From: a virus
Virus record (IMG/VR): IMGVR_UViG_3300042887_001843
Span: 1-26,012 of that record
Reading direction: 5' to 3' (one strand)
Length of the DNA stretch: 26,012 nt
The stretch's first letter is position 1. Each line of letters opens with the position of its first letter. Below are positions 2,713 through 10,024 of this stretch, in pieces. The notes under the pieces were generated by a model. The model worked only from the letters and a program-made list of their open reading frames with translations. It searched no databases and was not told the origin of the DNA. Position numbers and translations under genes: made by a program.

Positions 2713-3477
2713 TTACAAAATTACCTTTGTTACTATTTCGCTATATCCGTGCCAGATGTTCGACTTCTTGCAAAAGCCGTAGGTCATCAGATTCTTTTTG
2801 TATTTCTGGCGCGCTTCCTTTAGATCCTCATTGCCGATAAAATACCAGCCAACTAAATAGGGCGGGTGCTTTTCAACAGCAACAAAAAAGAAACCGTTGC
2901 AGGGCTTTCCTGTGGCCTCTTCAAGACCATCGGAGTAAAATGCGGCCTGCACATCGTATCGGTACTTTTTAACGCTCTGAGCAAAGCCTCTGGGGCTCGC
3001 GTCCTCTGTTGTTTTAAGGTCAATTATAACATTGTCAGCAGTGAGCCAGTCAGGGCGAGCCTTGCAATCAATGTCTGTCTCTTCATCATTCCAGTAAATG
3101 GGTTGCTCAGCAATGCCGTCTTTGAGTAAGTACTGAGCCGTCCGATGACCGCGGACGCTTTCCATTATCCTCTCAACCATTGTAGCGCTTTCGGCATCCA
3201 GTGGGATAAGGCCCTGCGAGTGTTCCAAAAAATTGGCCCAAGTTTCTTTGCCTTCTTTGGTGCGTCTGTCGCAATGAGGGGCAACAGCATAGCGTTTGCC
3301 GAACTCAGCGGGCTCAAACACTGCACAATGAGCAGCGGAGCCAATGATAAGGGCCGGGGTTTCTTTTTGCGGTGAGGCGTTGGGGTTTAAATAGCGCTCA
3401 TAGTACAATGCTGGAGCGCGATTAATTAGGTCTAGGCCGCTCTTTGAGACGCGGCTTGTGTCTGTGTGGTACTGCAT
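2713..3477 (-). CDS. RecE-like PD-(D/E)XK exonuclease
   Basis: A 254-aa nuclease (268 aa if the upstream ATG at 3519 is used). With numbering from 3519, the motifs are GSAAH (60-64), Glu138, RPD (155-157), IIDLKT (166-171; Asp167 and Lys169) and QxxxY in VQAAFYSDG (191-195). Together these form the PD-(D/E)XK core with the RecB-family QxxxY motif seen in exonuclease VIII/lambda-exonuclease-like proteins. Such enzymes resect double-stranded ends 5'-3' to give the strand used by RecT. I prefer ATG 3477 because the conserved part begins at MQYHTDTS, and a TAAATTTG box lies 8 nt before it. It is the first gene of the leftward recombination operon, divergent from the small HTH regulator. Confidence 0.85.
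   Translation of the reverse strand: MQYHTDTSRVSKSGLDLINRAPALYYERYLNPNASPQKETPALIIGSAAHCAVFEPAEFGKRYAVAPHCDRRTKEGKETWANFLEHSQGLIPLDAESATMVERIMESVRGHRTAQYLLKDGIAEQPIYWNDEETDIDCKARPDWLTADNVIIDLKTTEDASPRGFAQSVKKYRYDVQAAFYSDGLEEATGKPCNGFFFVAVEKHPPYLVGWYFIGNEDLKEARQKYKKNLMTYGFCKKSNIWHGYSEIVTKVIL
2716..2723 (-). promoter_or_regulatory. TAATTTTG -7-type box before the 142-aa gene
   Basis: On the minus strand TAATTTTG, a perfect TAnnTTTG, ends 6 nt before ATG 2709. It overlaps the last codons of the exonuclease gene. No TTTG is visible at 19-21 nt upstream. It could let the 142-aa gene and recT be transcribed independently of the exonuclease. Confidence 0.35.
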
Positions 3478-3519
3478 AACATTTGCAAATTTATCGCTTT
3501 TTTTGTAAATTTGTAGCAT
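3478..3519. promoter_or_regulatory. overlapping divergent promoters with inverted repeat
   Basis: Rightward: TTTG (3482-3485), 20 nt spacer, TAAATTTG (3506-3513), then ATG 3520 after 6 nt. Leftward: TAAATTTG on the minus strand (3493-3486), then ATG 3477 after 8 nt. The two -7 boxes form a perfect 8-bp inverted repeat (CAAATTTA / TAAATTTG) separated by 12 bp. The rightward -33 box overlaps the leftward -7 box, so the two promoters should exclude each other. The TTTTTTTGTAAATTT segment at 3498-3512 recurs exactly at 3753-3767. These repeats are candidate operators for the HTH protein. Confidence 0.6.
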
Positions 3520-3696
3520 ATGGAAAAAAATATCGTTACTGATTTAAAAATTAAGGCAATCCAAAAGGGCGTAACCCTCACAAAACTTTGCGCACTTGCA
3601 GGCGTGAATCGGTGCGTCTTAACTCACTGGTCAAGAAAAGAACCGAAGAGCCTAGAAACGTTAAGGAAATTAGAACAAACCTTACAAAATCTTTGA
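3520..3696 (+). CDS. 58-aa helix-turn-helix regulator (Cro/C1-like)
   Basis: A small protein from ATG 3520 to TGA 3694-3696. Residues 7-57 fit a compact Cro/XRE-like helix-turn-helix: helix 1 around TDLKIKAIQKG, then VTLTKLCALAGV as helix 2, NRCVLTHWSRK as the recognition helix, and KSLETLRKLEQTL as the closing helix. At 58 aa it is close to the minimum for such a domain and has no effector or dimerisation extension. It is divergent from the exonuclease gene and separated from the rightward operon by a terminator. This places it as the switch between recombination and replication transcription. Probable operators are the repeats at 3486-3513 and 3753-3767. Which promoter it represses is not shown. 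Confidence 0.75.
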   Translation: MEKNIVTDLKIKAIQKGVTLTKLCALAGVNRCVLTHWSRKEPKSLETLRKLEQTLQNL

Positions 3697-3704
3697 GTAT
3701 ATTT

Positions 3705-3759
3705 GCGCCGTTAGTGTGGTGCTAACTGCCTCGGGTTTCGGCTCGGGGCATTTTTTTTT
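3705..3759 (+). ncRNA. candidate ~50-nt structured small RNA
   Basis: A TATATTTGC box (3698-3706, perfect TAnnTTTG) precedes two abutting hairpins. Hairpin 1 has stem GTTAG (3710-3714)/CTAAC (3722-3726) with loop TGTGGTG. Hairpin 2 is the terminator at 3727-3750 with nine T. The loop and one flank (3715-3724) are perfectly complementary over 10 nt to the leader at 3808-3817, just before ATG 3820. Bases 3712-3723 are complementary over 12 nt to 7899-7910, inside the first codons of the primase-like gene. No -33 box is clear, so the RNA could instead be the 3' end of the HTH transcript. Structure and complementarity are seen; the regulatory role is inferred. Confidence 0.5.
3727..3759 (+). terminator. 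Rho-independent terminator
   Basis: A 9-bp stem (TGCCTCGGG, 3727-3735, with CTCGGGGCA, 3742-3750; two G-T wobbles) and a 6-nt loop, followed directly by nine T. It ends transcription from the HTH gene and the candidate small RNA before the rightward operon promoter. Confidence 0.85.
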
Positions 3760-3768
3760 GTAAATTTA

Positions 3769-3799
3769 TTTGGTTTTGTGGAAAACGCCTTTATATTTG
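3769..3799 (+). promoter_or_regulatory. consensus promoter of the rightward early operon
   Basis: TTTG (3769-3772), exactly 19 nt, TATATTTG (3792-3799): a full match to the Bacteroidota TTTG/TAnnTTTG promoter. Start of transcription is expected near 3804-3808, giving a leader of ~15 nt before ATG 3820 that contains TAGCACCACA (3808-3817). A copy of TTTTTTTGTAAATTT (3753-3767) lies just upstream and could be an operator. Confidence 0.7.
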
Positions 3800-3819
3800 C
3801 ATCCACATAGCACCACATT

Positions 3820-4035
3820 ATGAGTTTAGATATTATTTACCCAATCATTTTAGCGCCTGCTACCATTGCGGTGGCCTATTGCGCTCACGTAATTCGCCGC
3901 AACAAAAAGCGTGCAACTGAAACCCCTGAAGCCGAGCCCTACAAATTTGAGCGCGATGAGTATCGCCCCGAGTTTGATGAGTTCACGCAGATGCTTTATC
4001 AACGCAGAATGTACAGAGGGAGGGGCGACAAATGA
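3820..4035 (+). CDS. 71-aa membrane-anchored protein, first gene of the early operon
   Basis: Not recognised. Residues 3-24 (LDIIYPIILAPATIAVAYCAHV) form a single membrane segment, followed by a basic RRNKKR stop-transfer and a charged soluble tail rich in Glu, Tyr and Arg (YKFERDEYRPEFDEF ... RMYRGRGDK). The predicted topology is N-out, with the ~45-residue tail in the cytoplasm. It is the first gene after the early promoter and is coupled to the next membrane gene by an ATGA overlap. Early phage membrane proteins are often superinfection-exclusion or host-modulation factors, but nothing in the sequence proves that here. Its leader is the candidate target of the small RNA at 3705-3759. Confidence 0.65.
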   Translation: MSLDIIYPIILAPATIAVAYCAHVIRRNKKRATETPEAEPYKFERDEYRPEFDEFTQMLYQRRMYRGRGDK

Positions 4036-7868: not shown

Positions 7869-10024
7869 CCTATCTGCCGAACATAAGACAGTCGGCAAAG
7901 CACCACACTATCCAAATCGCTGATTATTTCGCCCTGGTGCGATCTGGTCAGCATTTGGCACTTATTGAAGCGTACAGAAATACCAAGGCGCTGAGTAAGG
8001 ATGAGCAGGCCGAGGCAAAGCAACGGATTCCTGCGGTTACGATATCGGGAACTTTTCGAGATAATGTGAGCAATGCAAACCTCATCCAGCACTCAGGGCT
8101 CATTTGCATCGATTTTGACGCGGTGGAAGATGTGGCTCGGCTAAAGGATGAACTGGCCAAAGATCCCTATACATTTGCGGCTTTGTTATCCGTTTCAGGC
8201 AATGGCTTGGCTGCACTTGTTAAGATTGAGCCAGAGCGCCATTTGGATGCGTTCAATGGGCTCAAACAGTACTATTTTAAAAACTACGGGCAACTGATTG
8301 ATCAGAGTTGCAAGAATGTGAGCCGGTTGCGGTTCCTTTCTTATGATCCTTTGCTGTACGTCAACGAGCAAAGTAAGACGTTTAAGGAGTACCCCAAAAA
8401 AGAAGCCAAGCCAAAGCAAGTGCACACTGTGCTGACCGGCAATGAATTTGATGAATTGATTGATAGGATTTGCAGGGGCGGCTATGATCTAACAGAGGGC
8501 GCTTACAAAAATTATCTCGATATTGGCTTTGCACTGGCTTCTGAGTTTGGAGAGCGAGGCCGTGAGTATTTTCACGCCATCGCCGCCCAAAACAGCAAAT
8601 ACGACCATATCAAGGCCGATAGGCAGTACAATTATTGCCTCAGAGATACAGGGCAGAGCAAAATCGGGATAGGCACTTTTTACTATTACGCTAAGCAGTC
8701 GGGCGTTGAGTTGAAAAGCCAGCAGGCTGTGAAGTTGGAAAACATTGCAAAAATGGCCAAAAAGCAAGGGCGTGCTCAGGAGTCGGTTGTTGAGATTGCG
8801 CGGCTGTCTGGAATGGACGTTGAAAAGGCCACCGAGACCGCCGCCGCAGTATTTGAGGCCAATGTTTCGCTGCAGCTTACGGGTCAGACGCCCGTAGCGC
8901 TATGCCAGTTGTATCTTCAAAACAACCACCAACTGCATTATAACACGATCACGGCAGATATTGAGGATCGCTCAATACTGTTTAACAATCGCCCCAAGAT
9001 TTTGGATGACATGGGCCTAAATACGATGTATCTGCGCTTCAGCGAGTTGACTGATAACAAGATTTCATTTGAATTTTTCTGCAGGGTGATCTATTCGGAA
9101 TTAACACGTTATTACAACCCATTTGAGGACTTTCTGAAAGCGAATGAGTCAGTACAGCGAAGTCAGCAACTAATCGATGAGTTGGCCGCTTGCATAGAAA
9201 CCACCACGCCGCACGTTGCCAAATACTTAACTCACTGGGGCGTTGGAATGATTGCCAGCGTTTACGGCCATACCTCGCCCCTGGTATTGGTATTGGCAGG
9301 GGAGCGCCAAAATACAGGTAAAACTGAGTTTTTTAGGCGCTTGCTTCCCAAGCCACTGGCCAACTATTACGCAGAGTCTAAACTGGACGGCGGTAAGGAT
9401 GATGATATTTTGCTGACCAAAAAGCTCATTATTATGGATGATGAATTTGGGGGTAAATCAAAATTTGAGGCCAAACGATTTAAGGAGTTAACGAGTAAGG
9501 CCAGTTTTTCAATTCGCCTGCCTTATGGGCGCACCCACCGAGATTTGAAGCGATTGGCCGTCTTAGCAGGAACTACTAACGATCTGGGCCTTATCTCAGA
9601 TCCAACAGGCAACCGTCGAATCTTGCCTATTAACGTGCTCGGCATTGATCACCAGCGATACAACGCCATTGACAAAACAGCGCTTTTTATGGCATTCTAC
9701 GACCTCTATCAGGCAGGGTTCAATTGGCACCTTTCGAGTGAGGATATACTACAATTAAACGAAAATAGTAGTGAATTTAATGCAATTAATTTTGAAGCGG
9801 AATTAATAAACCAATTTTTTAGAGTTCCACAAAATGGTGATTATAGCGATTATTTAACAAATACCGAATTGAAAATATATCTCGAGGTAAACAGCCAACA
9901 GCGGATTTTTGACACTCGAAAGTTGGGGATGGAAATGAAAAATTTGGGCTTTCAACAAGTGAAAAGGAAGGTCAATGGATCAACAATGCGCTGCTATGCG
10001 GTTGTAAAAATAGCCAGACAATGA
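7859..10024 (+). CDS. primase/helicase-like replication protein (BT4734-like N domain, PriCT, VirE-type P-loop)
   Basis: A 721-aa multidomain protein. Residues ~40-175 fit the BT4734/BF3469-like N domain (SGLICIDFDAVEDV, LSVSGNGLAALVKI), an archaeo-eukaryotic primase-like fold. Residues ~195-285 resemble a PriCT-type linker (YDLTEGAYKNYLDIGFALAS). Residues ~455-620 are a VirE/superfamily 3-like ATPase: Walker A GERQNTGKT (481-489, Lys488), Walker B KLIIMDDEFGG (Asp527, Asp528, Glu529) and an arginine-containing LAGTTNDLGLISDPTGNRRI segment. The C-terminus looks like a winged-helix module. It is expected to prime and unwind at the phage origin. It ends directly before the repeat cluster at 10037-10278, a plausible binding target. 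Codons 14-18 carry the 12-nt match to the candidate small RNA. Confidence 0.88.
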   Translation: MQITYLPNIRQSAKHHTIQIADYFALVRSGQHLALIEAYRNTKALSKDEQAEAKQRIPAVTISGTFRDNVSNANLIQHSGLICIDFDAVEDVARLKDELAKDPYTFAALLSVSGNGLAALVKIEPERHLDAFNGLKQYYFKNYGQLIDQSCKNVSRLRFLSYDPLLYVNEQSKTFKEYPKKEAKPKQVHTVLTGNEFDELIDRICRGGYDLTEGAYKNYLDIGFALASEFGERGREYFHAIAAQNSKYDHIKADRQYNYCLRDTGQSKIGIGTFYYYAKQSGVELKSQQAVKLENIAKMAKKQGRAQESVVEIARLSGMDVEKATETAAAVFEANVSLQLTGQTPVALCQLYLQNNHQLHYNTITADIEDRSILFNNRPKILDDMGLNTMYLRFSELTDNKISFEFFCRVIYSELTRYYNPFEDFLKANESVQRSQQLIDELAACIETTTPHVAKYLTHWGVGMIASVYGHTSPLVLVLAGERQNTGKTEFFRRLLPKPLANYYAESKLDGGKDDDILLTKKLIIMDDEFGGKSKFEAKRFKELTSKASFSIRLPYGRTHRDLKRLAVLAGTTNDLGLISDPTGNRRILPINVLGIDHQRYNAIDKTALFMAFYDLYQAGFNWHLSSEDILQLNENSSEFNAINFEAELINQFFRVPQNGDYSDYLTNTELKIYLEVNSQQRIFDTRKLGMEMKNLGFQQVKRKVNGSTMRCYAVVKIARQ

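Follow-up and report, generated by a model that had tools for sequence, protein, structure and literature searches.

A candidate antisense RNA matched to the translation starts of two divergent early operons in an uncultured virus

In the satellite phage P4, a small RNA of the control region, the CI RNA, pairs with early-operon leaders and causes premature transcription termination. The c4 RNA of P1 and P7 is a short control-region phage RNA whose loop is complementary to sequences around the ribosome binding site and which blocks translation; the 68/69-nt sar RNA of P22 pairs with the ant mRNA and inhibits protein synthesis, and the 77-nt OOP RNA from the control region of lambda acts on the early gene cII (PMC12197685). 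The antisense RNAs listed in a 2025 review of phage small RNAs are mostly single-target and mainly from enteric phages, and its main table holds none from phages of Bacteroidetes (PMC12197685); the literature searched here comprised open-licence PMC papers.

The window analysed here is an IMG/VR viral DNA record of 26,012 bases, and its relatives are uncultured viral contigs. Between two divergent early operons, overlapping neither target gene, we find the elements of a small RNA of about 48 nt, which we consider likely to act in trans as an antisense RNA blocking the translation starts of both operons. Like c4, it would be a short phage control-region RNA with loop complementarity and pairing at the translation start. 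However, c4 has one target, ant, whereas here two divergent operons appear to be addressed and no antirepressor is involved; the target genes encode a RecE-like exonuclease and a protein of 71 aa, an Rfam match is absent, and the host presumably initiates without Shine-Dalgarno pairing. The likeness to sar lies in a small phage RNA pairing with an mRNA, but sar has a single target in an enteric temperate phage, in contrast to two targets in opposite directions. As with OOP, a control-region RNA is aimed at an early gene; OOP is cis-encoded opposite its target, whereas this RNA is encoded apart from both and would pair over 10–15 nt. P4 CI shares the pairing of a control-region small RNA with early-operon leader sequences, but CI terminates transcription in one operon, while the sites here cover the start codons of two. 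Searching Rfam with cmscan gave nothing in the window at the gathering threshold and nothing for 3600–3900 at E up to 10, the C4 antisense RNA model included in both searches.

The predicted RNA and its promoter

Bacteroidetes mRNAs have no Shine-Dalgarno sequences, and structure near the AUG tunes initiation; the promoter consensus is TTTG/TANNTTTG, and in Flavobacterium johnsoniae the −7 element TAHHTTTG occupies −12 to −5 (PMC6847099). The two identical boxes pointed out in the initial annotation of this DNA are indeed exact copies of TATATTTGC (3698–3706 and 3792–3800), and no other copy occurs in the 26,012-nt window. Within the left box, TATATTTG (3698–3705, plus strand) matches TAHHTTTG (PMC6847099) and forms the putative −7 element of the small RNA; a recognisable −33 element was not found upstream of it. 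The right box belongs to a fuller promoter (3769–3799, plus strand), in which TTTG at 3769–3772 is followed after 19 nt by TATATTTG at 3792–3799, in line with the consensus (PMC6847099). Since the −7 element occupies −12 to −5, transcription is predicted to start at 3710 for the small RNA and at 3804/3805 for the right operon, near the 5′ ends estimated earlier. Judged by promoter type only, the host phylum of the phage is probably Bacteroidetes.

The candidate RNA would extend on the plus strand from 3710 to 3757, the 3′ end being approximate. Its fold consists solely of the two abutting hairpins described in the initial annotation (−20.6 kcal/mol, z = −4.7, none of the shuffled sequences being equally stable). 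The targeting hairpin (3710–3726), with the stem GTTAG/CTAAC and the 7-nt loop TGTGGTG, begins at the predicted +1 and adjoins an intrinsic terminator (3727–3759), made up of a stem-loop at 3727–3750 and a T run. The predicted RNA has a promoter-like box and a strong terminator, and both are conserved among relatives.

Directly upstream lies a gene for a 58-aa protein (3520–3696, plus strand) that is HTH-like by inspection and gave no match in Pfam or PHROG and no significant one in PDB. Its own promoter can be read at 3482–3520 of the window (plus strand; TTTG, 20 nt, TAAATTTG), and its mRNA is predicted to be nearly leaderless, with +1 near 3518 and the ATG at 3520. This promoter overlaps the divergent exonuclease promoter, the two sharing an 8-bp inverted repeat, CAAATTTA/TAAATTTG.

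Two target sites on opposite strands

The first gene of the right operon encodes a 71-aa protein without assigned family (3820–4035, plus strand). The perfect 10-nt pairing of 3715–3724 with 3808–3817, on which the initial annotation had built its proposal of an antisense RNA, was confirmed, and the helix grows to 13 nt with one G-U pair (3712–3724 with 3808–3820). Target site 1 (3808–3820, plus strand) therefore comprises the leader and the A of the AUG. The predicted leader of about 16 nt lies almost wholly within the pairing. Compared with dinucleotide shuffles of the RNA, the contiguous helix has p = 0.0004, and TAGCACCACA has no other occurrence in the 26-kb record.

Besides this site, a second target, absent from the initial annotation, was detected on the opposite strand: the same loop pairs with the start of the first left-operon gene. 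This gene encodes a RecE/exonuclease VIII-like protein of 254 aa (2713–3477, minus strand) and precedes, on that strand, an ORF of 142 aa and a gene for a RecT-like protein. Its start, ATG at 3477, was assigned by comparison with relatives and lies four bases behind the predicted +1, giving a 4-nt leader. Target site 2 (3464–3473, minus strand) covers exonuclease codons 2–5, CAG TAC CAC ACA, which include AGTACCACAC, and is a 10-nt complement of 3714–3723 with one G-U pair (p = 0.009, shuffle test of the contiguous helix). As the exonuclease mRNA is read from the opposite strand, the small RNA could reach it only in trans, and pairing in cis is excluded for this target.

The second site also bears on a reading that works in cis only: transcripts running on from the HTH gene would fold into a long-range stem that hides the right AUG or, as the initial annotation already suggested, competes with the terminator. 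The two complementary segments do lie on one strand, 83 nt apart, and terminator read-through is possible. Such a stem nevertheless leaves the matched site in the left-operon mRNA unexplained, and it fails on this second target; further, a good promoter located beyond the RNA serves the right operon, with the result that the bulk of the right-operon mRNA would not carry the other half of the stem. We regard this explanation as very improbable.

A third site was considered in a VapE-like primase gene (7859), where AGCACCACACTA at 7898–7909 (plus strand, codons 14–17) is a 12-nt perfect complement of 3712–3723. Its synonymous sites are frozen in clade A, yet the site is lost in clade A′ despite the same loop, and this candidate was rejected.

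Conservation and covariation among related phages

Relatives were collected from an alignment of the right-operon target protein (241 sequences, 80 retrieved) and from one of the exonuclease (327, of which 80 were retrieved); clades A and A′, the family of the window, contributed 32 loci that were read. A block of 52 nt (3698–3749) is identical in 15 contigs, with the surrounding 440 bases 83–96% identical (ungapped matches), and conservation in clade A begins precisely at the 3698 box. In two loci (L026 and L042) about 150 bp have been inserted between this box and the HTH gene; the insert resembles a tRNA gene with a long variable arm and, in L026, directly abuts the box; ARAGORN did not call it as a tRNA in either locus. 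A similar tRNA-like stretch is seen in L207.

The loop TGTGGTG is invariant in all 32 loci of the two clades, and ACCACA is retained at the start of the right operon in every one of them, despite replacement of the leader or the first gene. The distance from promoter box to ACCACA varies from 8 to about 34 nt, the site staying near the AUG. In one locus (L172) it is found solely inside the first codons, in two (L176, L181) it has been re-formed closer to the AUG, and where an extra gene has been inserted (L019/L038), both this gene and the one behind it bear the target site. Loop and leader do not vary independently in the related phages, and the antisense proposal thereby withstands the comparison suggested in the initial annotation.

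On the left side, the stem GTTAG/CTAAC of clade A goes together with GAC as exonuclease codon 6, and ATTAG/CTAAT of clade A′ with AAT or GAT; this holds for 17/17 haplotypes, although the change from A to A′ may be a single evolutionary event. The substitution of G-C by A-U in the stem is matched in codon 6, so the hairpin pair and the RNA-mRNA pair changed together. Further, TAC CAC in the exonuclease is fixed in all 17 haplotypes, while both synonymous codons are used within the gene. Among readable exonuclease relatives without the RNA, TAT stands in two thirds, CAT also occurs in four, and the next Thr is replaced by Lys in all. The terminator stem shows a compensatory change in one locus (L035).

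Outside the window's family, the same place is occupied in lineages B, C, F, G, H and E by a box, a hairpin or short stem, a linker and a terminator. The boxes are TAnnTTTG-like and stand at the corresponding place; the RNA sequences are different and unrelated, and again match the targets of their own lineage. In lineage F the linker TTCTGTTTTCATGTT pairs over 15 contiguous nt with AACATGAAAGCAGAA across the exonuclease AUG (p = 0.0008), and matches to the exonuclease start with internal loops were obtained in lineages C, G and B2 (gapped p = 0.003, 0.001 and 0.007, respectively). In lineage E, where both the exonuclease and the HTH gene are missing at this place, the left operon opens with recT, whose AUG is matched by the RNA, as is the right leader. 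The HTH gene is also missing from its place upstream of the small RNA in lineage G.

Start-codon windows chosen after inspection (right −22 to +6, left −6 to +26) gave a match to the lineage's own left target throughout (p 0.0025–0.047) and to the right target in A, B1, G and E. When partners were permuted among seven lineages in these post-inspection windows, p was 0.0012 for the left, 0.02 for the right and 0.0004 for both. Combined over eight lineages by Fisher's method, a gapped test in wide windows gave 9e-8 (left) and 1.4e-4 (right), and the contiguous-helix test 3e-6 and 2e-3; these values are to be read with the lineages being interrelated and delimited by hand, and with many contigs coming from few metagenome projects. 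None of these tests supported the right target in C, F and H. Taken singly, lineages B, C, G and H were not significant in the contiguous-helix test; strong contiguous pairing is seen only in clades A/A′ and, for F, at the left target.

These comparisons also bear on two readings without an antisense RNA. The first holds that the hairpin pair is an ordinary terminator following the HTH gene, its complementarity being chance or a shared motif of no regulatory meaning. Terminators do stand behind genes, by our estimate chance alone should produce a few 10-nt inverted repeats spaced within 100 nt in 26 kb, and other parts of the record contain stronger non-specific duplexes: in a whole-record RNAduplex ranking, which is uninformative here as GC-rich coding windows dominate it, the target sites are not on top. 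However, the shuffle and permutation tests, the covariation of stem and codon, the retention of ACCACA through leader turnover and the presence of the element in lineages E and G without an HTH gene leave this reading scarcely probable.

Alternatively, as the initial annotation also considered, the site could be a DNA operator, with the 58-aa HTH protein or another regulator binding GTTAG-N7-CTAAC and half-sites near the operon starts. GTTAGTGTGGTGCTAAC is an inverted repeat with perfect arms, a gene of HTH type is its immediate upstream neighbour, the sites are near promoters, and a change of repressor would likewise carry operators along. For an operator, conserved symmetric arms and a free spacer are expected; instead, the spacer, formed by the loop, does not vary, whereas the arms do so together, and it is the loop rather than the arms that the distant sites match. 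The second gene of L019/L038 has a site yet no promoter, and the site keeps near the AUG at any box-to-site distance from 8 to about 34 nt. Lineages E and G show matched pairs with no HTH gene in between, and lineage F pairs across the AUG by its linker, not by a palindrome. We therefore judge an operator improbable. The comparative sequence evidence supports the antisense interpretation, and the joint change of RNA and targets across related phages points to a real antisense switch.

In many loci (L081–L121), relatives of the right-operon gene stand without a recE/recT left operon nearby and with an amidase-like gene upstream, and no small RNA was found at the corresponding place. Clade D (the L084 group) has a hairpin ahead of the target gene, with the loop CCATGTTG complementary to CGACATGG; it was rejected as a candidate, since this stretch encodes the C-terminus of an amidase-like protein and the clade shows neither a left operon nor a small RNA there. 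The element was found in no genome of the genome collection searched, where the exonuclease relatives are distant and none is from Bacteroidetes; named phages gave only distant terminase relatives (about 40% identity) and none of the target protein.

Proposed mode of action and exchangeable first genes

The elements, their conservation, the complementarity and its lineage-matched covariation were read directly from the sequences; from these we infer that the RNA is produced, pairs in the cell and represses translation, with the limiting or timing of early expression as its purpose. With a host-type promoter and a terminator to itself, the small RNA would be produced as a separate transcript and act in trans on two mRNAs, on the right-operon leader up to the AUG and on codons 2–5 of the exonuclease. 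Pairing probably starts at the 7-nt loop UGUGGUG and would then spread into the hairpin arms. As initiation in Bacteroidetes proceeds without Shine-Dalgarno sequences and is tuned near the AUG, a duplex there, at the extreme 5′ end of the mRNA, should suffice to block loading of the 30S subunit, and both early operons would be turned down together.

Conceivably, the antisense RNA is real and its main effect is other than a block of initiation, namely mRNA decay, early termination, or stabilisation or activation of the target. Whether the effect is negative or positive does not follow from pairing by itself, and P4 CI RNA works via transcription termination. In most lineages, however, the AUG or the first codons lie within the sites, and this is where initiation is usually blocked; we hold a different main effect to be rather unlikely.

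The element is present where the divergent left operon exists and was unseen in the group without it, which fits a coordination of both operons by the proposed start-blocking RNA. Since integrase and resolvase families were absent from 15 related contigs, which are possibly fragments, the RNA seems likelier to time or limit early expression, or to act in superinfection, than to control lysogeny in the classic way. If the proposal is true, recombination genes and the right early operon are under the joint control of one RNA in hosts that initiate without Shine-Dalgarno pairing, where an antisense block of initiation becomes directly testable, and the set of lineages is a natural record of a small RNA coevolving with two targets. 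With evenly balanced confidence, we further suggest a phage class of "bidirectional start-blocker" RNAs in such hosts, in which a single short RNA encoded in the divergent control region shuts down both early operons via pairing at the AUG and would be re-matched whenever the first left gene (exonuclease to recT) or the first right gene (cargo, with MKNTTL-coding starts kept) is exchanged.

The position directly behind the early right promoter holds unrelated small ORFs sharing the N-terminus MKNT(TL), seen as first genes in L038, L172 and L174 of clades A/A′ and in L072, L073 and L076 of clade C. These ORFs may be early accessory genes, e.g., for anti-defence. MKNTTL is encoded by ATGAAAAACACCACATTA in clades A/A′, with CACCACA as the complement of the loop, and by ATGAAAAACACAACACTA in clade C. 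The cargo gene of L038 recurs in L106 as a homologue of 91% identity. L106 belongs to the group in which such an RNA was not found, and there the first codons are different and the target site is absent.
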